From IMG/VR virus record IMGVR_UViG_3300025536_000029, positions 1-35,184 of that record: DNA of 35,184 nucleotides. One strand, given 5' to 3'. Positions 7,230-35,006 of this stretch are shown in pieces. A program made the translations under genes and the position numbers. Each line of letters opens with the position of its first letter. Position 1 is the stretch's first letter. The notes below the pieces were generated by a model, which was not told the DNA's origin, made no database searches, and was given only the letters and a program-made list of their open reading frames with translations. Source of the DNA: a virus.

Positions 7230-7245
7230 ACGGTCCTACACGGCA

Positions 7246-7273
7246 AAAAACGCCCCATTCACGGGGCGTTTTT
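7246..7273 (+). terminator. Strong rho-independent terminator after the tail tube gene
   Basis: Stem AAAAACGCCCC (7246-7256) / GGGGCGTTTTT (7263-7273), loop of six bases, T5 run. The A-rich 5' arm could also allow termination in the other direction. Confidence 0.92.
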
Positions 7274-7277
7274 GTTA

Positions 7278-17307: not shown

Positions 17308-17754
17308 TTATACGACAGGTGGTTTTACTTGGTCAAGTGACCGGCTGCCTTTCATTTCGTTGCAGTAGCCACAGGCTGGCTGTAGGTTGGCTTGGGTGAA
17401 CTTTTTAGTACCGTCACGGGTTCGTGATACTACATGGTCCAACGTCAGCATACCAATCCCCCAGCTTAGCTTCTCTGGGTCTACTGTGAGCTTTGGCGTA
17501 CACCAGGGGTGTATTCGCAAGTAGCAATACCAAAAGCCATCACCATCTGGTGGGTTCTTTCTGATCCAGGTGGCACGGGTTATAAACCACTGTTTAGTTT
17601 GTTTGCCCACCTTTTTTAATGGTGTGCGCTTCATACCGACTTTGCGTTTCAGCGCAACTTTGGGGTTGGCTGGGCAAGCGTATGGGAAGTGATTTGGTTT
17701 TGGGTCTTGACAAAATTTGCAGGTTTTCTTTGGAAATCTATCTAAGCCTGGCAC
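17308..17754 (-). CDS. HNH endonuclease, leftward, next to terminase
   Basis: A 148-residue protein. The N-terminus has a C-x2-C pair and a further Cys (CKFCQDPKPNHFPYAC), a basic linker (KRTPLKKVGKQTK) and an HNH site: T-L-D-H-V-V-S-R-T-R-D-G and N-L-Q-P-A-C-G-Y-C-N-E-M-K-G-S. HNH proteins near terminases stimulate DNA cutting during packaging in several phages. GTG 17754 is chosen because AAAGGAGGG lies 5 bases upstream; a longer frame to 17787 would run through that RBS and the -10 box. It is transcribed away from the ParB-terminase operon and ends at the shared terminator. Confidence 0.85.
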   Translation of the reverse strand: MPGLDRFPKKTCKFCQDPKPNHFPYACPANPKVALKRKVGMKRTPLKKVGKQTKQWFITRATWIRKNPPDGDGFWYCYLRIHPWCTPKLTVDPEKLSWGIGMLTLDHVVSRTRDGTKKFTQANLQPACGYCNEMKGSRSLDQVKPPVV

Positions 17755-21020: not shown

Positions 21021-21124
21021 TTATTTATGAGTGCGAACAGCACTATAGCCAGTTAGCACCAGGAAAGTGCCTGATCTGCCATGCCAAGCTAGTTAGTAGA
21101 TATATACAAACTCAGAAGCGTTAG
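21017..21124 (+). CDS. 35-residue zinc-ribbon-like protein
   Basis: A tiny protein, MIIYECEQHYSQLAPGKCLI..., with ligands C6 (in YECEQH), H9, C18, C21 and H22. The pattern C-x2-H ... C-x2-C-H fits a minimal zinc ribbon. It is translated by ATGA overlap with the 53-residue gene before it. Its end overlaps the leftward hydrolase gene tail to tail by 32 bases. Such mini zinc proteins are common in phages, usually as regulators, but its role here is unknown. Confidence 0.5.
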   Translation: MIIYECEQHYSQLAPGKCLICHAKLVSRYIQTQKR

Positions 21125-21830
21125 CGGTCCGTGTATTGACGTTGCCCCAACCGGCAAGCGCATTCATTTCAGAGATTGTGATTTTACCACCACCATCAAC
21201 ACTTTCAACATAGACCACATGACCAAGTGCGCCACGGGTAGTAGTGCCGACTGCACCAGGTCGTGGCTCAGTACCAACCGGCAAGCCTTGCTTTTGTGCA
21301 TTCCAATACCACATGTTTGCGTTGCCCAGTGTGTTAGGGATAGAAGCACCACGCCGGTTCTTCACGTACCATGTGCAATATCCATAGTCGTATGTATTAC
21401 TGCCGTCATAGCTTTGCTGAGGGGCTACACCAGGAGTTTCTTTGGGTAACTGCACTTGTTCTGGTATTTCTCTTGCAAGCACCTCAGACGGCTCAGGAAC
21501 AGTTATTTGGTCGCCTGGGTGAATAATATCTGGGTTGGTCAGCTGAGTGTTTTTAGCCCACAGGCGTTGCCACTCTACGTTGTGCGCAGTACCAATCTTA
21601 GTTAGGTTGTCGCCATCAACCACCGTGTATACCACTGGCTTTGGTGGTTCAACTGGCTTGGTGGGCTTTGGTTCTGCTACCAGGGTAGATATAGCCAAAG
21701 GCTTTAATTCGTATAGATTGTTGCCAAAAAGTTTGTCTAGATCGGTTTGGTTGCTAACCGGTTGAGCTAGTGCGGTGGCAGGCGTTGTGAGCAATGCGAT
21801 TGCCACTGCTAGTGTGGTTAGACGTTTCAT
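21093..21830 (-). CDS. Secreted LysM-CHAP peptidoglycan hydrolase
   Basis: A 245-residue protein with a Sec signal peptide (MKRLTTLAVAIALLTTPATALA, probable cleavage after residue 22). Next come a Pro-rich linker (52-66), a LysM wall-binding domain (about 67-112, 'VYTVVDGDNLTKIGTAHNVEWQRL') and a C-terminal CHAP peptidase (about 143-245) with catalytic C152 (YGYCTWYV), H204 (ALGHVVYVE) and E221/N223 (ISEMNA). CHAP enzymes cut peptide or amide bonds in peptidoglycan. The architecture and the 'CTWYvknRR' / 'ISEMN' wording resemble Saccharibacteria proteins. ATG 21830 is chosen over 21845 because GAGG lies 9 bases before it. It is transcribed alone and leftward. Confidence 0.9.
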   Translation of the reverse strand: MKRLTTLAVAIALLTTPATALAQPVSNQTDLDKLFGNNLYELKPLAISTLVAEPKPTKPVEPPKPVVYTVVDGDNLTKIGTAHNVEWQRLWAKNTQLTNPDIIHPGDQITVPEPSEVLAREIPEQVQLPKETPGVAPQQSYDGSNTYDYGYCTWYVKNRRGASIPNTLGNANMWYWNAQKQGLPVGTEPRPGAVGTTTRGALGHVVYVESVDGGGKITISEMNALAGWGNVNTRTANASEFVYIY

Positions 21831-21899
21831 AATCATGAGCCTCATGTGACAGTCGTTAGCGTGGCTCTACTTGTTACTCCATATTAAAGTTACCTGCCG

Positions 21900-22298: not shown

Positions 22299-22805
22299 AT
22301 GTCTTACAAAGTTAGTGACCAAAGAAATAAAACTATGTTATCTAAAATTGGGGATGCAGCACAACTGATTGATAATCAGGCTTTTCTACCGTTCTACCGG
22401 TCCGTGCAGATCATGCTTGAAAAAGCTGGTAAGGCAGAAGAATGGGGCAAAATGATTGAGGTAGCACTTACCAAAGAAACACCCAGCCGGTACTTTGCAA
22501 AGCTATGTTCAATGGTCAAAGCCGGTACTTATAAATTCGTTGAAAAAGTCAAAGAGGTTGTCAGTGGGGCAACTCTATGGATAGACGACAAGCTAGTAAA
22601 GTTTGGTTTTGGTAAATACCACCCGTACTGGCGGCGCAAAGCTCAGGAGTTTATTAACGTAAATGGTCAGGCTGGCTTTGTTGAGCTGCTTGAATTTGCA
22701 GATAAACGTGGCATCAGCCAAAAATATATGGCTAGTGCGCTCAAAAATTGCAAGCCGCCGCAAAAGTTCTACAAAGAAAACGTACTTGGCGCAGCAAAAG
22801 CATGA
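22299..22805 (+). CDS. Unknown helical protein, first gene of the accessory operon
   Basis: A 168-residue mostly helical protein. It has 'QAFLPFYRSVQIMLEKAGKAEEWGKMIEVALTKETPSRYFAKLC' and 'WRRKAQEFINVNGQAGFVELLEFADKRGISQKYMASALKNCKPP'. The second block resembles helical bundles in phage replication accessory proteins, but I cannot name a family. TTGGAGGG seven bases before ATG 22299 fixes the start; a longer frame to 22239 lacks an RBS. It overlaps the methyltransferase by 4 bases (ATGA). Confidence 0.65.
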   Translation: MSYKVSDQRNKTMLSKIGDAAQLIDNQAFLPFYRSVQIMLEKAGKAEEWGKMIEVALTKETPSRYFAKLCSMVKAGTYKFVEKVKEVVSGATLWIDDKLVKFGFGKYHPYWRRKAQEFINVNGQAGFVELLEFADKRGISQKYMASALKNCKPPQKFYKENVLGAAKA

Positions 22806-24067
22806 GAATATTTAGCACTTTCACTGGCATTGGTGGGTTTGAGGTTGGTATAAACAACGCCGCCAAACAACGTGGTCCACTTGAAATAGTGGGTTACAGT
22901 GAGGTAGATAAATACGCCGTGCAGGTATACGAAAAACATTTTAAGGGGGTCAAAAACTATGGGGATATTACAAAAATTAAAGCTGAAACGCTGCCAGACT
23001 TTGACTGCATCGTTGGCGGTTTCCCCTGCCAAGCATTTAGCATCGCAGGTAGAAGAGGCGGCTTCAATGACACCAGAGGCACACTCTTCTTTGATTTGGC
23101 AAGAATTTTGCAAACAAAACAGCCTAGACTATTCGTCTTTGAGAATGTCAAAGGGCTTCTTAACCACGACAATGGCAGAACTTTCAAAACCATCATCACC
23201 ACGCTTGATGAATTGGGGTACGACTGCCAATGGCAAGTGCTTAACAGCAAAGATTTCGGTGTACCCCAAAACAGAGAACGTATTATCATTGTCGGACATC
23301 TTAGAGGATCAACCAGACCAAAAGTATTTCCTATCCGAACAGTCAATGCAGAAACTATTAGCCCAACATCAAGCCAGGGCGAATTAGTAGATTTAACTAG
23401 GCGTGAGCCTAGCGGCTACCGCAAACGCAAAGATGGGCGTGTCGGCACACTGGATGCCAATTATTTCAAAGGGCTGGCGAACCAAGAACGACCTGGTGTT
23501 TTAGTCGGCACTCTTCGCACCCACAAAGATGGTGAGGGATTTAGAGAAATGAAATCAGGTCTAGCACCAACATTACCTGCACGTGCCAGAAATGATGGAA
23601 GTGGGCAACCAGTAATATATGTGCCAGAAGCCACAAAAAAGGGTTATGCGGAAGCCAGCGTAGGCGATAGCATAAATCTAAGCCAACCCAACTCAAAAAC
23701 ACGGCGTGGGCGTGTTGGCAGAGGCATCGCCAATACTCTAGACACTGGTATGCACCAGTACACCGTTCAGCCAGTACAAAACCCAGATCGCTTAAATAAA
23801 AAACAGAATGGTAGGCGAATTAAGCCAGATGGTGAGCCAGCCCATACTTTGACGGCAGCAGACAAGCACGGCGTTATGATAGAGGGTATTATAAGAAGAT
23901 TGACCCCAGTAGAATGTGAAAGGTTGCAGGCATTCCCTGACAACTGGACTAAGTACGCCGAGGGGGGGGGCGAAATATCAGATACGCAGAGGTACAAAAT
24001 GTGTGGTAATGCAGTTACTACTAATGTTATTCAGGCTGTATTTGAAAGAATTTTTGCGGTAACATGA
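22802..24067 (+). CDS. DNA (cytosine-5) methyltransferase
   Basis: A 421-residue C5-cytosine methyltransferase. Motif I is F-T-G-I-G-G-F-E-V-G (7-16), motif IV is the catalytic P75-C76-Q77 (GGFPCQAFS), motif VI is E114-N-V, and motif VIII is Q166-N-R-E-R. Motifs IX-X near the end include 'LTPVECERLQAFPDNW' and 'GNAVTTNVI'. The target-recognition region between VIII and IX is about 200 residues and has repeated 'TLdan/TLrthkdg/TLpARarndg/TLdtg/TLtaadkhG' units, so it may read more than one target. No partner nuclease is adjacent, so it is probably an orphan enzyme protecting phage DNA from host restriction. A G9 tract lies in its 3' part. Confidence 0.93.
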   Translation: MRIFSTFTGIGGFEVGINNAAKQRGPLEIVGYSEVDKYAVQVYEKHFKGVKNYGDITKIKAETLPDFDCIVGGFPCQAFSIAGRRGGFNDTRGTLFFDLARILQTKQPRLFVFENVKGLLNHDNGRTFKTIITTLDELGYDCQWQVLNSKDFGVPQNRERIIIVGHLRGSTRPKVFPIRTVNAETISPTSSQGELVDLTRREPSGYRKRKDGRVGTLDANYFKGLANQERPGVLVGTLRTHKDGEGFREMKSGLAPTLPARARNDGSGQPVIYVPEATKKGYAEASVGDSINLSQPNSKTRRGRVGRGIANTLDTGMHQYTVQPVQNPDRLNKKQNGRRIKPDGEPAHTLTAADKHGVMIEGIIRRLTPVECERLQAFPDNWTKYAEGGGEISDTQRYKMCGNAVTTNVIQAVFERIFAVT

Positions 24068-26087: not shown

Positions 26088-26260
26088 CTTACCTATATGA
26101 AATTGACTTTGGTGATGCCCATAAGCATACGGTTGGTTATGTCAAAGCACCTAGTTTGTTAATAGCAACAACTACCATACTGACGGAGTTTACCAACCGG
26201 CATCCTGAACGTGAGATACTTCGCACGACTTTTGAAAAGAGGTTAGAGGATGAAAAATAA
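26084..26260 (+). CDS. Unknown 58-residue protein
   Basis: A GTG start overlapping the previous stop (GTGA). It reads MTYLYEIDFGDAHKHTVGYV..., then a Thr-rich segment and a charged helix (HPEREILRTTFEKRLEDEK). The mixed strand and helix pattern has no recognised family. It ends 11 bases inside the next gene. Included because the frame is open exactly between two coupled neighbours and no other gene covers it. Confidence 0.5.
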   Translation: MTYLYEIDFGDAHKHTVGYVKAPSLLIATTTILTEFTNRHPEREILRTTFEKRLEDEK

Positions 26261-26522
26261 TATGGATGGCAAAACACAAGCCTGGCGTGATGCAGCAGAC
26301 AAGCTGTTAGAAGCCCTGGCACGTGACAACCAGTACGTTGTTGGCGACATACTCATTATCTTTCTAGAAAGTGCAGGGTACGGCTTAGACGACTACACAC
26401 CACTAGGCGGCGTATTCAAACGTGCAGCCAAGCGTGGTATCATCAGTCGTATTGACAGTCAGCGCAAGCAGGCACTATGGAAAAGTGAAATATACGTGAG
26501 GTGCGACCATGTTGAAAATTGA
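26250..26522 (+). CDS. Small phage winged-helix-like protein, paralogue A
   Basis: A 90-residue protein whose core 'DAADKLLEALARDNQYVVGDILIIFLESAGYGLDDYTPLGGVFKRAAKRGIIS' matches the later protein at 27111 by eye. The pattern is helix, '.v.gDi...l...g......alG..f+.AakrGiI', then a Lys/Arg loop and 'lW.s.iY'. This motif is common in small phage proteins and looks like a winged helix. AAGAGG lies 7 bases before ATG 26250; ATG 26262 is the alternative. It overlaps the next gene by 14 bases. Confidence 0.6.
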   Translation: MKNNMDGKTQAWRDAADKLLEALARDNQYVVGDILIIFLESAGYGLDDYTPLGGVFKRAAKRGIISRIDSQRKQALWKSEIYVRCDHVEN

Positions 26523-27078
26523 ACAATTTGTAGAAGAGCAGTTTGGCATCAAGTTATTGCCTGCCCAAATTGAAATGATAGCCATGATTGCTGCCAACCC
26601 AGACATTGAGGTGCTTATAACCCCGATTGGTAAAAAGACTGGCAAAACTACAGCAGTCAAAGCGGCATTAGCATACTTGCAGGATGGTTTAAAAGAAGTA
26701 CCGACTACTGCACCGGTCACTAATCAGAGTGGGCAACCAATAGGTGACTTTCCAAAAGACATACCTACTGACGAAGATTTTGAGCGTATGCATTCAGAAC
26801 CAGTTAGTTATGGCGATGAGGATGATTGGGTGCTTATATCAAAAAAGTACACGCAAGAAGAGGCACTAGCCAAAATTCAAGAGCTGATGAAAAAAGACTG
26901 GGGCTGGTCCGAAGATGAGGGTGGTTATCCTACAGACGTAAATGACTTGCAGACTTTTGATGTTGGTTATGGGTACGATCACGACAGTTACCACTATTCG
27001 GAGGGCGGCTATTGGATATGTTCAGAAAGTAATCAGGTTAGCAAACGCTGGGAGGCGTGGGGAGTTGCTACACAGTAA
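26509..27078 (+). CDS. P-loop-start protein with acidic C-terminal half
   Basis: A 189-residue protein. Residues 1-65 ('EQFGIKLLPAQIEMIAMIAANPDIEVLITPIGKKTGKTTAVKAAL') look like the beginning of a terminase- or helicase-type ATPase, with a Walker-A-like G-K-K-T-G-K-T. The rest has no Walker B or helicase motifs. It is instead Asp/Glu/Tyr-rich (SYGDEDDWVLISKKYTQEEALAKIQELMKKDWGWSEDEGG) and ends in Gly/Tyr/Asp clusters. It may be a truncated or re-purposed ATPase. GAGGTG before ATG 26509 supports the start. Confidence 0.6.
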   Translation: MLKIEQFVEEQFGIKLLPAQIEMIAMIAANPDIEVLITPIGKKTGKTTAVKAALAYLQDGLKEVPTTAPVTNQSGQPIGDFPKDIPTDEDFERMHSEPVSYGDEDDWVLISKKYTQEEALAKIQELMKKDWGWSEDEGGYPTDVNDLQTFDVGYGYDHDSYHYSEGGYWICSESNQVSKRWEAWGVATQ

Positions 27079-27110: not shown

Positions 27111-27503
27111 ATGCCGGAGGTAAAATTACCACCACCACAGCCAATGAAACAGACAACTGTTTTTGACCAGGCTGAACGATTAAAACAACAGGGCATGGAG
27201 GCAGCCTATCAATATGCAGATGTTGATTGGAAAAAGATAGCCAGTGATGCGTTGCGTAAATGTGCAGAAACCAAGCCAGAGTTTACCACTGATGATATGT
27301 GGGAAATAATAAACCAGACTGGCGTAGTGACGGGTGAAAACCGTGCTATGGGTGCTATCATGCAGTCAGCATCCCGTGCTGGCATAATCAAAGCATCAGG
27401 TTACTTTCTGCCATCTAAACGTGTGAGCAAGCACAAAAGCCCTACACGTGTCTGGCAAAGCCTGATTTACAAGCCGCAAGGTAGAACAGAATTAAATGCC
27501 TGA
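27111..27503 (+). CDS. Small phage winged-helix-like protein, paralogue B
   Basis: A 130-residue protein. After a Pro/Gln-rich start (residues 1-30) it has the same core as paralogue A: 'EFTTDDMWEIINQTGVVTGENRAMGAIMQSASRAGIIKASGYFLPSKRVSKHKSPTRVWQSLIY'. The 'RAMGA...AsRaGiI...gy..S.R.s.H.....vW' pattern is seen in many phages of Gram-positive bacteria. GGGGAG nine bases upstream fixes ATG 27111. Function unknown; DNA binding is plausible from the fold. Confidence 0.65.
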   Translation: MPEVKLPPPQPMKQTTVFDQAERLKQQGMEAAYQYADVDWKKIASDALRKCAETKPEFTTDDMWEIINQTGVVTGENRAMGAIMQSASRAGIIKASGYFLPSKRVSKHKSPTRVWQSLIYKPQGRTELNA

Positions 27504-27816
27504 TATAAACGAAGAGTTAAGAAAACTACTGCCAAAAGTTACTGATGAAACAATAGGCGAAATCAAGCAACTGTTTGCCAGTGACCAGAAAGATAAAATA
27601 GACGAAGTTTACGCCGAAGCTAAAATACGGATGGCTGACGGGTTTGAAATTAAAAAGGCGATTATACTCATACCCAACGAAATAAAATTACCACCAGAGT
27701 TTATGCCAAACTTTGAAGATAATTATGTTGTCACCAACGTTAGTGAGAAAGAGTTTAAGAGGGCTATAAGAAAATTGCAGAAAATATTTAGGGTTAAGAT
27801 AAAATACAAGGGTTAG
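27496..27816 (+). CDS. Unknown 106-residue protein, last of the operon
   Basis: MPDINEELRKLLPKVTDETI... has an acidic helical front, 'KAIILIPNEIKLPPEFMPNFEDNYVV' in the middle and a very basic end (KEFKRAIRKLQKIFRVKIKYKG). No family recognised. It overlaps paralogue B by 8 bases. It is followed by the structured RNA at 27824. Confidence 0.55.
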   Translation: MPDINEELRKLLPKVTDETIGEIKQLFASDQKDKIDEVYAEAKIRMADGFEIKKAIILIPNEIKLPPEFMPNFEDNYVVTNVSEKEFKRAIRKLQKIFRVKIKYKG

Positions 27817-27819
27817 AAT
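27814..27819 (+). promoter_or_regulatory. Possible -10 box for the 27.8 kb RNA
   Basis: TAGAAT overlaps the stop of the preceding gene. A start about seven bases later (27825) would coincide with the closing stem of the RNA. No clear -35. Confidence 0.35.
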
Positions 27820-27823
27820 AAAA

Positions 27824-27959
27824 GTTGGCGGTAACCACCCAGTGGTTCAATGGCGGAAGCCGGTAATGTTGTAAGTGGGTATTCGTACTCCGTATCGCCA
27901 ACAACTACATGTGAGGTGTAGTTCAAGCACACAAACGCTCTACGGGGCGTTTTTGTGTG
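27824..27959 (+). ncRNA. Candidate stand-alone structured RNA with terminator
   Basis: GTTGGCGGTA (27824-27833) pairs over 10 bases (one G-U) with TATCGCCAAC (27893-27902). It encloses three hairpins: AACCAC/GTGGTT (27833-27847, triloop CCA), TGGC/GCCG with a GGAA loop (27851-27862), and GGGTA/TACTC with a UUCG loop (27877-27890). A further hairpin, AACTACA/TGTAGTT (27903-27923), and then an intrinsic terminator (27928-27959) follow. GNRA and UUCG loops with a perfect closing stem argue for real RNA structure. It lies between operons with no frame. Confidence 0.65.
27928..27959 (+). terminator. Terminator of the 27.8 kb RNA and accessory operon
   Basis: Arms CACACAAACGC (27928-27938) and GCGTTTTTGTGTG (27947-27959), with two extra T in the second arm; the T5 run lies inside the stem. 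Confidence 0.75.
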
Positions 27960-27966
27960 ACTAAAA

Positions 27967-27975
27967 TGCTATAAT
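27967..27975 (+). promoter_or_regulatory. Extended -10 promoter giving a leaderless fibre mRNA
   Basis: TGC-TATAAT, six bases before ATG 27982, no RBS. Confidence 0.75.
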
Positions 27976-27981
27976 TTGCTT

Positions 27982-28884
27982 ATGGATAGACTCAGTGGTA
28001 TACAAACATCCCTACATACTGGAAAAAAACCGGCTGTTTTGGGTGGAAAAGATGCTAGTGAAATAGAACTACGCACTACCGACTCACAAGTTCAATGGCG
28101 ATACAGAGGCTTTTTACAGTGGAATGATTTAATCTCAATTAGAGATTTGACCGGTCCACAGGGTGAGCGTGGGCAAACTGGGTTTACTGGTCTAAAAGGT
28201 GACAAAGGCGACCAGGGAATTCAAGGCGAAACTGGCGCACAAGGTGACAAAGGCGAAACTGGCGAAACGGGTGCTACTGGCGCAGACGGTCCACACGGCG
28301 CACTAGGTCCACGTGGTCCAATAGGCGAAACTGGGTTAGCTGGTAGCAATGGCAAGAACGGCACAAACGGCAAAGATGCCCGTGAGATTGAATTGCAAAC
28401 AACCTCTACCTATATCCAGTGGCGTTACGCTGGTAGCTCAGTATGGCGCAATCTTATTCCGCTAAAAGAGCTTATCGGTCCACAGGGCAAGCCAGGAGTG
28501 AAAGGCGAAAAAGGGCAAAAGGGTGATACCGGTGAAGAGGGTGATACCGGTGAGCGTGGCGAACGTGGTCCACAAGGTTTTACTGGTCCAGCTGGAATGC
28601 CTGGTGTTGCCGGTCCACAAGGTGTAAAGGGCGACAAAGGTGATCCAGGTGAGGGTGGCGGCGATGAGTGGTCTACAAACGAAACACCCGTTGGCTTAGT
28701 GGATGGAATAAATAATGTGTTCACTACCGCATTTGACTTTAAGACCGAAACAACCTCTGTAAGCATCAATGGTTTACGACAATCGTTAGATTTGCATTAT
28801 ACTGAAAGTAGTGATAATGAAATTACTATGGATGAACCACCGCATTCTAGTGATATAATAAGCGTAGATTATATAAAGGCTTAG
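27982..28884 (+). CDS. Collagen-like tail fibre protein
   Basis: A 300-residue protein with two Gly-X-Y blocks (about residues 57-130 and 168-230). Each is preceded by the same unit of about 43 residues, 'GKDA.EIEL.TT...QWRY.G...W..LI', so the protein is an internal duplication. The C-terminal 65 residues ('ETPVGLVDGINNVFTTAF', 'SVSINGLRQSLDLHYTESSDNEITM', 'IISVDY') form a beta domain also found at the end of the next protein. Collagen stretches give long trimeric rods, so this is a fibre shaft. It has no RBS but a promoter placed for leaderless translation; ATG 27982 follows from that. Confidence 0.88.
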   Translation: MDRLSGIQTSLHTGKKPAVLGGKDASEIELRTTDSQVQWRYRGFLQWNDLISIRDLTGPQGERGQTGFTGLKGDKGDQGIQGETGAQGDKGETGETGATGADGPHGALGPRGPIGETGLAGSNGKNGTNGKDAREIELQTTSTYIQWRYAGSSVWRNLIPLKELIGPQGKPGVKGEKGQKGDTGEEGDTGERGERGPQGFTGPAGMPGVAGPQGVKGDKGDPGEGGGDEWSTNETPVGLVDGINNVFTTAFDFKTETTSVSINGLRQSLDLHYTESSDNEITMDEPPHSSDIISVDYIKA

Positions 28885-32336: not shown

Positions 32337-32978
32337 CTAAATAAAACGGGCTTTCTGAGTCCATTTGACACGCCCTGTAGCCAGTTTATGGGCAATACGT
32401 GGTTCATCGTTCACTGCCTTGCCATGACCGTCTATAAGGCTTCCTAATGCGTCATTGTGACCTACTAAACTAGGCACACAGTAGTAAACAGGTATATCGT
32501 TGCGACAATAGAACTCACCAATCTTGTTGTCATACTGCAAATCAATATCTTCTACGAATTCAAGCATTGGCTGTATCTGATCCGTAGGTATTGCTATACC
32601 AACACCCCAATAGAGCTGATTGCTTTTCAGCCATTCACCATCAGAGGCTTTTTCAACAGCTTCTTTTACACGCCGTGCCAACGGTCTGGCTCTACCGGTA
32701 TATAGGGAAATGATTGTTTTAACAGGCAGAGCTTTTATAGCGTTTTCAATGTTTTCGTAAAAATCAGGGGTCAATATAGCATCATCCTGAATAACTACAT
32801 GCCAATCACCGTGTTCTAGCCCAGCTTCCAACGCCCTTTTACCAGTATGCCACTCTACACGGTCCGTATCGTAAACGATCTGAACACCTGCAAATGGATA
32901 ACGCCGTGTTTGGGCAAATAGCAATTCTGCTTGTTGCTTTCTTGCTGGATGTGCCATTATTGCTAAACTAATTTGCAT
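32337..32978 (-). CDS. Glycosyltransferase, third gene of the glycan operon
   Basis: A 213-residue GT-A-like enzyme. It opens 'ISLAIMAHPARKQQAELLFAQT' and has a DxD-type motif, V-V-I-Q-D-D-A-I-L (about 61-69), followed by 'TPDFYENIENAIKAL'. A later conserved 'NQLYWGVGIAIPTDQI' and 'PVYYCVPSLVGHN' are typical of phage and bacterial family 2/25-like transferases. It should add a sugar to a glycan, but the donor and acceptor cannot be read from the sequence. TTGGGG before ATG 32978 and a 16-base overlap with the pyruvyl transferase gene show coupling. Confidence 0.75.
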   Translation of the reverse strand: MQISLAIMAHPARKQQAELLFAQTRRYPFAGVQIVYDTDRVEWHTGKRALEAGLEHGDWHVVIQDDAILTPDFYENIENAIKALPVKTIISLYTGRARPLARRVKEAVEKASDGEWLKSNQLYWGVGIAIPTDQIQPMLEFVEDIDLQYDNKIGEFYCRNDIPVYYCVPSLVGHNDALGSLIDGHGKAVNDEPRIAHKLATGRVKWTQKARFI

Positions 32979-33640
32979 AATTTCCCCAATGCTTCTATTA
33001 AATCATCTTGTACGTCATTTAACGGTTTCACAAGTGCCGATTTATGATCTAGCCACTTCCAATCACCTGTAATTACATCATCACGGGCAATTCTCATGGA
33101 TGGTATACCGTAACTGTCTGCAATTATAACGCCATGCAGGGAACTAGACATAATGACCCTACAGCTGGATATTTTTTTAATAACTTGCTCAACTGGCTCA
33201 GTGGCATCAATAACGATGTCAGCAAATGGGTATTTGTTATCATCAACGTAATGCCGCACTACACCAATGTTGTATTTAGCCGGTTCTCTGGTCCATATCC
33301 TAGAAGCCAATAAACCAAGATCACCAAGTGCCACTTTCCCAGCTTTTAGGTTTTTAGCGGTTAGTTTTCCACGAACTGCCAATACTTTAAAATTGTGTTT
33401 TGATTTATGGGTATAGCCAGACCCAGTGCCAATAACTATGGCGTTTGGGTTCTTTATTTCAGCAGGATCAAGCATAGTGCCTGTTAAAAGTACGTCTGCT
33501 TTGCCAAATGCTACCCGTTTTACTTTAAAACCGTAGTGTCGCAAAACAACAGCCCCTAACTCATCCCCAAAATTCCAGGGTGCTTTTCGGGGTCGCCACC
33601 AATAGGCATTGACTGTTTTATTTGTGCCTAAACCAAGCAT
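32963..33640 (-). CDS. Polysaccharide pyruvyl transferase
   Basis: A 225-residue protein with the family marks: 'APWNFGDELGAVVL' near the N-terminus, 'VIGTGSG', 'VLAVRGKLTAKNL...ALGDLGLLAS', and the C-terminal 'IMSSSLHGVIIADSYGIPSMRI'. Relatives transfer pyruvate from phosphoenolpyruvate to a sugar, forming a ketal on wall teichoic or capsular polysaccharide. Only one small copy is present and it is shorter than many members. The start is set at ATG 33640 because GAGG lies 9 bases before it; ATG 33655 is possible. It overlaps the upstream gene by 23 bases. Confidence 0.85.
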   Translation of the reverse strand: MLGLGTNKTVNAYWWRPRKAPWNFGDELGAVVLRHYGFKVKRVAFGKADVLLTGTMLDPAEIKNPNAIVIGTGSGYTHKSKHNFKVLAVRGKLTAKNLKAGKVALGDLGLLASRIWTREPAKYNIGVVRHYVDDNKYPFADIVIDATEPVEQVIKKISSCRVIMSSSLHGVIIADSYGIPSMRIARDDVITGDWKWLDHKSALVKPLNDVQDDLIEALGKLCKLV

Positions 33641-35006
33641 CGGTCTGTACCTCATATTTCTTAAATAGTGATGTCACATGTCTGCCACTCTCAATTATCA
33701 TATCGTAACGACTATATAGTAGCTTATTGAAGATGCCCATTTCAGTAAGGTCTTGCGGCTTATTAAAGTGGTATAAGTACATTTCTCTACATAGGTCCAT
33801 TACTATTTTGCGGCTTCCACCAACAACGCCACAATTCAGCAATGGTAAGTTACCGTGATCCCTCAGAAAGCTATTTACGCTTGGTTCTAGGTGTCTAGTC
33901 AGCATCCAGTGATTATTTAGTGTGTTACCTGGCTCATCACCAACATATAGCTTGCCACGCTCTAAATGCGCAAATGGGTTGTTCACCATATCAACATCGG
34001 TGGCATCTACTACAAAGACGTTATTTATATCACGGCGATCCCTCAAATACTGCCATTCTTTCAACCATCGTTCAAAATAAGGGGTTGTAGAGATAGTTAC
34101 TCTATTAGGTAGGTCAAAACAGTTGTGTAGTAACACAAATTCAATACCATGAGCCTCTACTGATTGCTTTAGCTTCTCAATGGCTGATAGGTCCGGCTTC
34201 CATGTAGTATCACGCTGAACGTCAAATACGTTAGCAAAATAGCAGGCTATTACAACATCTTTACCATAGGGTGCAAAAGCCGATGAGTCTATACGTTCTT
34301 TCAGTAGTTTGTGGTTATTATCAAGTCCAGCCCTACGATCCGCTGCCGATATGCTACTTGCCACTGCTTGGTGTTGGTCAGCTGAATAAATAAGTTGTTC
34401 ACTATCTACAACATCCATGTGCTTGAATGTAGTAAGCCCTGCATTGTGAATGCGTGTGGTCCAATCACCATGCTCATCCATAGCCTTGCCATAGTCTAGG
34501 TCCATACCACCTACAGTTGCCAATGCAAAGCTATCTACATACAGCATGCAGCCTCTAGCATGGCTATGCACTACGTGCTTATCGTCTTTGTATATGATCG
34601 CATCATCACCCACTGGACTACCATTAGCCCACCTATCAAAGAGGTACATAAGGTGATGCTCAGGGCTTTCTATATAGGGTTCGTACCAATCGGGTGCAAT
34701 AGGGTAAGTATCATCGTCAAATAAGAAGATATGATCGCATTCGTTCAATAGTTCCAAGCATTTGTTCTTAGCCTTTGCGATGCCTACATTTTGTTCAAAC
34801 CTATATACTTCAACACCTTTTATCTTTACTGGTGACTGGCTTGCATCATCAACAATAATAATCTTTGCGTTAGGTGTAAGCTCTACCAGCTTGGCTACCG
34901 TGTCACGCACCATAGCGTTGCGGTTGTGTGTAGTAACACCTATGCCTATTGAATAATCTTTTTCTTTTGCTTTAACGTATGGATCACCATCAATCATGAC
35001 CTGCAT
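33618..35006 (-). CDS. Two-domain glycosyltransferase, first gene of the glycan operon
   Basis: A 462-residue protein. Domain 1 (about 18-225) is a family 2 transferase: 'YSIGIGVTTHNRNAMVRDTVAKL', 'KIIIVDDAS', 'NVGIAKAKNKCLE' and the DxD motif F-L-F-D-D-D-T. Domain 2 (about 248-455) starts 'KDVVIACYFANVFDVQRDTTW' and has 'VFVVDATDVDMVNNPF' and 'LNCGVVGGSRKIVMDL', a second nucleotide-sugar-binding pattern like that of small phage transferases. Such a double enzyme could build a disaccharide. ATG 35006 has TTGGAG six bases upstream. Confidence 0.85.
   Translation of the reverse strand: MQVMIDGDPYVKAKEKDYSIGIGVTTHNRNAMVRDTVAKLVELTPNAKIIIVDDASQSPVKIKGVEVYRFEQNVGIAKAKNKCLELLNECDHIFLFDDDTYPIAPDWYEPYIESPEHHLMYLFDRWANGSPVGDDAIIYKDDKHVVHSHARGCMLYVDSFALATVGGMDLDYGKAMDEHGDWTTRIHNAGLTTFKHMDVVDSEQLIYSADQHQAVASSISAADRRAGLDNNHKLLKERIDSSAFAPYGKDVVIACYFANVFDVQRDTTWKPDLSAIEKLKQSVEAHGIEFVLLHNCFDLPNRVTISTTPYFERWLKEWQYLRDRRDINNVFVVDATDVDMVNNPFAHLERGKLYVGDEPGNTLNNHWMLTRHLEPSVNSFLRDHGNLPLLNCGVVGGSRKIVMDLCREMYLYHFNKPQDLTEMGIFNKLLYSRYDMIIESGRHVTSLFKKYEVQTDAWFRHK

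Follow-up and report, generated by a model that had tools for sequence, protein, structure and literature searches.

A covarying family of structured RNAs, probably independently transcribed, in uncultured phages

Region 27824-27959 of an uncultured virus genome carries a structured RNA that belongs to a family of at least 14 members, in which the core of the closing helix and a constant hairpin show compensatory changes above both shuffled and slid controls. The genome was analysed as one stretch of 35,184 bases (hereafter the window), which is the whole of record IMGVR_UViG_3300025536_000029; judged by its genes (capsid, portal, tape measure, Dit and terminase) the virus is a tailed phage. 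Both the structure and the transcription unit of this RNA are well supported by computation, and we think it rather probable that the family is a new one of accessory, independently transcribed phage small RNAs that act in trans and probably bind a protein. Overall, the analysis supports the interpretation in the original prediction, which had been made from the letters of the sequence.

The fold of the window RNA

The locus sits between the stop codon (27816) of a gene for a 106-residue protein whose function is not recognised (27496-27816) and the start (27976) of a collagen-like fibre gene (27976-28884), just where the original prediction had placed it; in the window the fibre operon lies downstream of the RNA and its terminator. 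All of the elements described here are on the plus strand. The closing helix P1, for which 10 bp had been predicted, indeed joins 27824-27833 to 27893-27902 by 10 uninterrupted pairs, of which one is G-U, and is seen both in the fold and in the covariation of its core among 13 members. Inside it RNAfold places the P2 hairpin ACCAC-CCA-GUGGU (27834-27846, pairs 27834-27838/27842-27846), and most relatives allow an equivalent hairpin of other sequence. Comparison with the relatives also marks out the conserved motif GUUCAAUGG (27845-27853; GUUMAAUG in the family). The P3 hairpin GGC-GGAA-GCC (27852-27861) has the counterpart GGA-GCAA-UCC in L029, a compensatory pair change that retains the GNRA loop. 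Of the three internal hairpins originally proposed, P2 and this GGAA hairpin agree with the predicted fold of the window; the UUCG hairpin (P4, GUA-UUCG-UAC, 27879-27888) is present in the sequence but weak (3 bp), with partial fold support, and is shortened or lost in the predicted structures. A small analogous hairpin occurs in L029.

Adjoining P1 is the conserved hairpin AACUACAU-GUGAG-GUGUAGUU (27903-27923), which the original prediction had listed as an extra hairpin of 7 bp; the hairpin is real in the comparison, but its length is 8 bp, one U-G pair counted. Its stem covaries and its loop is invariant in all 13 of the hairpin-bearing members. The intrinsic terminator was found as expected, at 27928-27959, and would form the 3' end of the RNA; it appears in the fold, and a terminator-like stem with a T-run is present at the corresponding position in the other hairpin-bearing members. 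Elsewhere in the window (7241-7275) there is a terminator-like inverted repeat that has 15 bases in common with the stem of this terminator. The loop sequence of the constant hairpin has a second copy as well: GTGAGGTG stands at 26496-26503, at the ribosome-binding site of the gene 26509-27078 and inside the 3' end of the gene 26250-26522, and L017 has GTGAGGTG at the equivalent ribosome-binding site (~17665-17672), where a short GUGAG hairpin is possible. This could represent either a shared protein-binding site or a coincidence.

The folding energy of 27800-27980 is -55.4 kcal/mol, against a mean of -44.7 for shuffled sequences (z -2.63, a level equalled by 3 of 200 shuffles; z -2.2 without the terminator), and the members have a mean z of -1.2, with several of them unremarkable. 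Folding energy alone is therefore only moderate evidence; the comparative evidence is far stronger.

Family members and covariation

Besides the window RNA we have found at least 13 members, all of them in uncultured phage contigs (12 in relatives of the window phage and one in an unrelated phage); 13 of the 14 have the GUGAG hairpin, and one, L125, has the junction domain alone. The total is a lower bound, because the patterns used across the whole collection were exact. A terminase search of viral contigs gave five close relatives, and a terminase alignment led to 80 loci. A blastn match in L008, together with inspection, revealed the closing helix, the constant hairpin and the terminator in six contigs, and a covariance model of the hairpin plus terminator (R1) found the non-seed members L100, L028, L044, L029, L017 and L021 at E values from 1.5e-12 to 1.6e-5; L045 is nearly identical to L044. 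The match of R1 to L039 was weak (E 0.017), but this member was independently recovered by an exact pattern for the junction core. The exact junction-core pattern also found L125, where P1, P3 and the CAGCAGCC 3' side, which are outside the pattern, match too.

In L125 the element is flanked by a possible scaffold gene and a probable capsid gene. The terminase, portal and capsid of this phage are unrelated to those of the window; its terminase fails to match the window terminase profile, and its proteins have no detectable similarity to the window's with the exception of a Dcm-type DNA methyltransferase. The latter (window 22748-24067, ~55% identity) is a second link between these two phages. 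After the junction domain of L125, and before the probable capsid gene, come an inverted repeat UGGCGAC...GUCGCCA and a strong terminator-like hairpin (L125:1296-1525), which may represent another structured RNA or a long 5' leader.

Several further matches to the exact patterns were rejected as chance-like: in L013, L015, L109-L124 and eight matches in genome contigs either the hairpin or the P1 complement is missing, or both are, and those of L109-L124 that were searched with R1 gave no match. A search of genome contigs for terminase relatives found none, and blastn searches of cultured phage and plasmid records with the members tried gave no relevant match, the plasmid matches covering the terminator part only. 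Four longer contigs from relatives (L006, L007, L043 and L049, 29-35 kb) have no convincing member by either model, with the proviso that a very divergent form would escape detection; these four contigs suggest that the RNA is accessory.

Covariation was measured on an alignment (A5) of the P1 core and the constant hairpin from 13 members, hand-spliced to drop the variable body and with the arms assigned by us. Standard pairs make up 90.5% of its cells. Two-sided changes affect 7 of the 13 pairs, a count reached by 1 of 500 shuffles, and the covariation score is 0.336 as compared to 0.173 for the shuffles, none of the 500 reaching the observed value; the shuffles leave the relatedness of the members uncorrected. 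When the partners are slid by 1-3 columns pairing falls to 26-51%. The variants of P1 include GCUGG/CCAGC, GCAGG/CCUGC, GCCGG/CCGGC, GUUGG/CCAAC and GGGCG/CGUCC, and G-U pairing is common (at one pair, in 6 of 12). The original prediction had named covariation among homologues beforehand as a point on which it could fail; base pairs do covary across the 13 members. On an unconstrained alignment of the junction domain RNAalifold returned P1 alone, the lengths of P2 and P3 being too variable for MAFFT to align; constrained folds and inspection suggest that both hairpins, with differing sequences, can form in most members.

In nine members (L026, L044, L100, L028, L021, L023, L039, L008 and L125) the 5' domain can be read as a three-way junction, in the order P1, invariant GGUGCG, P2 hairpin, near-invariant UUAAUANANGUUMAAUG, P3, mostly CAGCC, and P1. 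Their near-invariant joining strands are UGCG and UUAAUANANGUUMAAUG; P3 varies in both sequence and length, with GNRA loops and an exchanged pair in L026 and L044. The window RNA and L029 have a longer P1 and the four-way form, and in L004 and L005 one internal hairpin remains. Consequently, the four-way junction with UUCG and GNRA loops that the original prediction described does fit the window, but as a local variant rather than the family core: neither the UUCG nor the GGAA loop defines the family, since L029 alone shares the four-way/GNRA form and most relatives are three-way. A different variant, L017 (20084-20158), is tRNA-like: its P1 has 7 bp and resembles an acceptor stem, and a T-arm (CUGGG-UUCAAUU-CCCAG) and CCA precede the GUGAG hairpin; it has no anticodon arm.

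A motif of the GUUMAAUG type is found at the equivalent position in 9 of the 12 hairpin-bearing relatives (in one of them as GUUUCAUG), and the other three have GUUAUGAG. The constants across hairpin-bearing members are P1, one or other of these motifs, and the GUGAG hairpin. By sequence comparison, conservation in the family is highest in the GUGAG hairpin, in P1 and in the joining strand that ends in GUUMAAUG.

Transcription unit and possible functions

A -10-like box, TAGAAT (27814-27819; family motif TANAAT), overlaps the stop codon of the gene upstream of the window RNA. In 10 of the 14 members a TANAAT motif precedes P1 and ends 2-9 nt from it, compared with a background of 1.3% of the 16-nt windows of these sequences (the binomial value for this enrichment takes no account of relatedness and is not treated as a probability); L028, L021, L005 and L125 have no exact box, and no -35 element is conserved among the members. 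The genes upstream vary (the 106-residue protein, a possible nuclease, a sugar-nucleotide dehydratase-like protein, a possible capsid scaffold and others) and are mostly unrelated to each other, so that coding constraint does not explain the box and the RNA unit is not tied to any one gene. At the consensus level a putative promoter upstream and a terminator at the 3' end point to an independent small RNA unit, in line with the original view of an RNA made on its own. In the window, a promoter at ~27814-27819 would give an RNA from ~27822 to ~27957, roughly 135 nt, comprising a multi-way-junction domain closed by P1, the constant GUGAG hairpin and the terminator.

The main rival to such a unit is a cis-acting element of the 3' untranslated region, which would protect or process the upstream message while the terminator ends the operon. 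P1 starts 3-27 nt past the stop of a co-oriented gene (≥50 codons) in 10 of the 14 members, a terminator follows farther on, and in others shorter frames end at this place, as judged by eye. Given this proximity, read-through from the upstream gene is possible, above all in the four members that lack an exact box. However, the -10 box is conserved despite the differing upstream genes, and the long near-invariant segments outside the helices exceed the needs of a stability hairpin, and we consider the cis-acting explanation unlikely. The position of the window RNA and its terminator directly before the fibre operon might also suggest an antiterminator or attenuator for the fibre genes. In L008, L023, L044, L029 and L004, however, the gene after the RNA is convergent and does not belong to a fibre operon, and in L008 and L004 it is glycosyltransferase-like; this makes a fibre-linked role unlikely, and attenuation itself scarcely credible. 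In the window, three leftward genes (32337-35006) converge on the fibre operon, two of them with glycosyltransferase family matches, and among the relatives L008 and L004 have a homologue of the window gene 32337-32978 that ends right beside the RNA terminator. One more gene stands out by its orientation: 21093-21845, on the minus strand of an otherwise rightward region, encodes a probably secreted protein with LysM and CHAP-like domains (assigned by eye), homologues of which are present in L008 and L006.

Catalogue searches bear on the remaining alternatives. Rfam 15 gave no match in the window, and none on the locus even up to an E value of 5; no gathering-level match was obtained for the window slice (L001), L100, L028 or L029, and sub-threshold matches occurred in L026, L125 and L017 only, that of L017 being to tmRNA and falling on its acceptor/T-arm part. 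A clear match to a known family, a second point on which the original prediction could have failed, is thus absent, in agreement with its not having been recognised there as a named riboswitch. Nor had it been recognised as tRNA or tmRNA, and ARAGORN found no tRNA or tmRNA gene in the window or in 23 loci. A small self-cleaving ribozyme or a metabolite-binding aptamer built on the three-way junction would account for the near-invariant UGCG and UUAAUANANGUUMAAUG of nine members, which resemble catalytic or binding cores in their conservation; the idea is nevertheless improbable, since the UGCG and UUAAUA parts are missing in the window, L029, L004, L005 and L017, no Rfam ribozyme or riboswitch matched the window or the members tested, and the convergent downstream gene of several members leaves a riboswitch no message to switch. 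Very improbable, in our view, is a tRNA-derived element or a mimic that serves as an RNase P substrate or tRNA decoy: L017, with its acceptor-like 7-bp P1, T-arm, 3'-side CCA and tmRNA match, invites this interpretation, but the acceptor stem, T-arm and CCA are combined in L017 alone, being absent from the window and the other members, and there is no anticodon arm. We give next to no credence to a DNA-level element, such as an attachment, packaging or recombination site that looks like RNA only by its inverted repeats. Such repeats are indeed intergenic and present in some genomes and not in others, but the frequent G-U pairs, the conservation of the loops on one strand and the common orientation of the -10 box and the terminator all speak for RNA. 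An integron attC-like site was rejected as well, the P1 ends of the relatives not being GTTRRRY.

The sequences contain no conserved reading frame: the ORFs that start at the conserved AUG have 2-38 codons and are in different frames. About a third of the members do share a frame that runs into the hairpin (..CEV/..REV), as would be expected by chance given that the hairpin is conserved, and a small protein was discarded as a candidate. An antisense RNA to the phage's own genes is also disfavoured, as no conserved long match was found; complementarity to the own genome is at most 13 nt and not at a shared gene (exact matches in partial genomes).

We return to the accessory small RNA acting in trans. 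Because the loops and joining strands are the most conserved parts, while the helices change by compensation, recognition by a protein, or a binding or catalytic core, is favoured over antisense pairing. A protein of the host or the phage might then recognise the constant hairpin together with the near-invariant joining strand, and the RNA might serve as a decoy, sponge, anti-defence or regulatory RNA; protein binding is conjectured from the way in which conservation is distributed. Promoter, RNA and terminator would constitute a moron-like unit placed behind varying genes, the main domain of which also occurs in an unrelated phage. A bolder and more doubtful proposal is that the three-way junction, with its near-invariant joining strand, defines a new class of RNA that has passed between unrelated phages, probably with a host group in common, and has a specific biochemical activity, for example the inhibition of a defence protein of the host, the takeover of one of its RNA-binding proteins, or that of a new ribozyme or aptamer fold.

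Relation to known RNAs

As far as Rfam and the searches of cultured phages and plasmids show, the family and its junction core are new; more broadly, small structured phage RNAs that have a promoter and a terminator of their own are already known. To our knowledge, few functional non-coding RNAs of phages have been described, most of them from cultured model phages. A covarying accessory RNA in two unrelated kinds of uncultured phage would be a candidate RNA-based tool for host takeover or counter-defence, and the conserved junction offers a well-defined target for biochemistry.

With the pRNA of Phi29 the family shares small size, a structured phage origin, a helix closing the 5' and 3' sides, and a multi-way junction. 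The window RNA, in contrast, has no Rfam match and lies at the end of an operon in a siphovirus-like phage whose large terminase is conventional; an unsystematic look at the family gave no sign of loop-loop pairing. The likeness to tRNA, tRNA-like RNAs and tmRNA consists of a ~7-bp closing helix and a junction, plus the acceptor- and T-arm-like parts and CCA of L017, whereas the family as a whole has no anticodon arm, no ARAGORN match and, outside L017, no T-arm. The put sites of HK022 and the nut-boxB of lambda are also phage RNA hairpins near a terminator, boxB having a pentaloop, but in our family the terminator is immediately adjacent, the genes downstream in relatives are convergent, and no sequence resemblance was seen. 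Three helices with conserved joining strands are likewise typical of the hammerhead, purine and TPP three-way junctions; the conserved bases of the family are different, and Rfam gives no match.

A further parallel in kind is with the GOLLD-type RNAs, some of which are found in phage genomes. These are much larger and are included in Rfam, whereas the present family measures ~100-170 nt including the terminator and has a hairpin signature of its own, and the window RNA has no Rfam match. Candidate structured RNAs are the subject of PMC2864571 and PMC12286853. The phage-associated RNAs of this type, whose role is unknown or partly known, are likewise conserved, covarying and non-coding.
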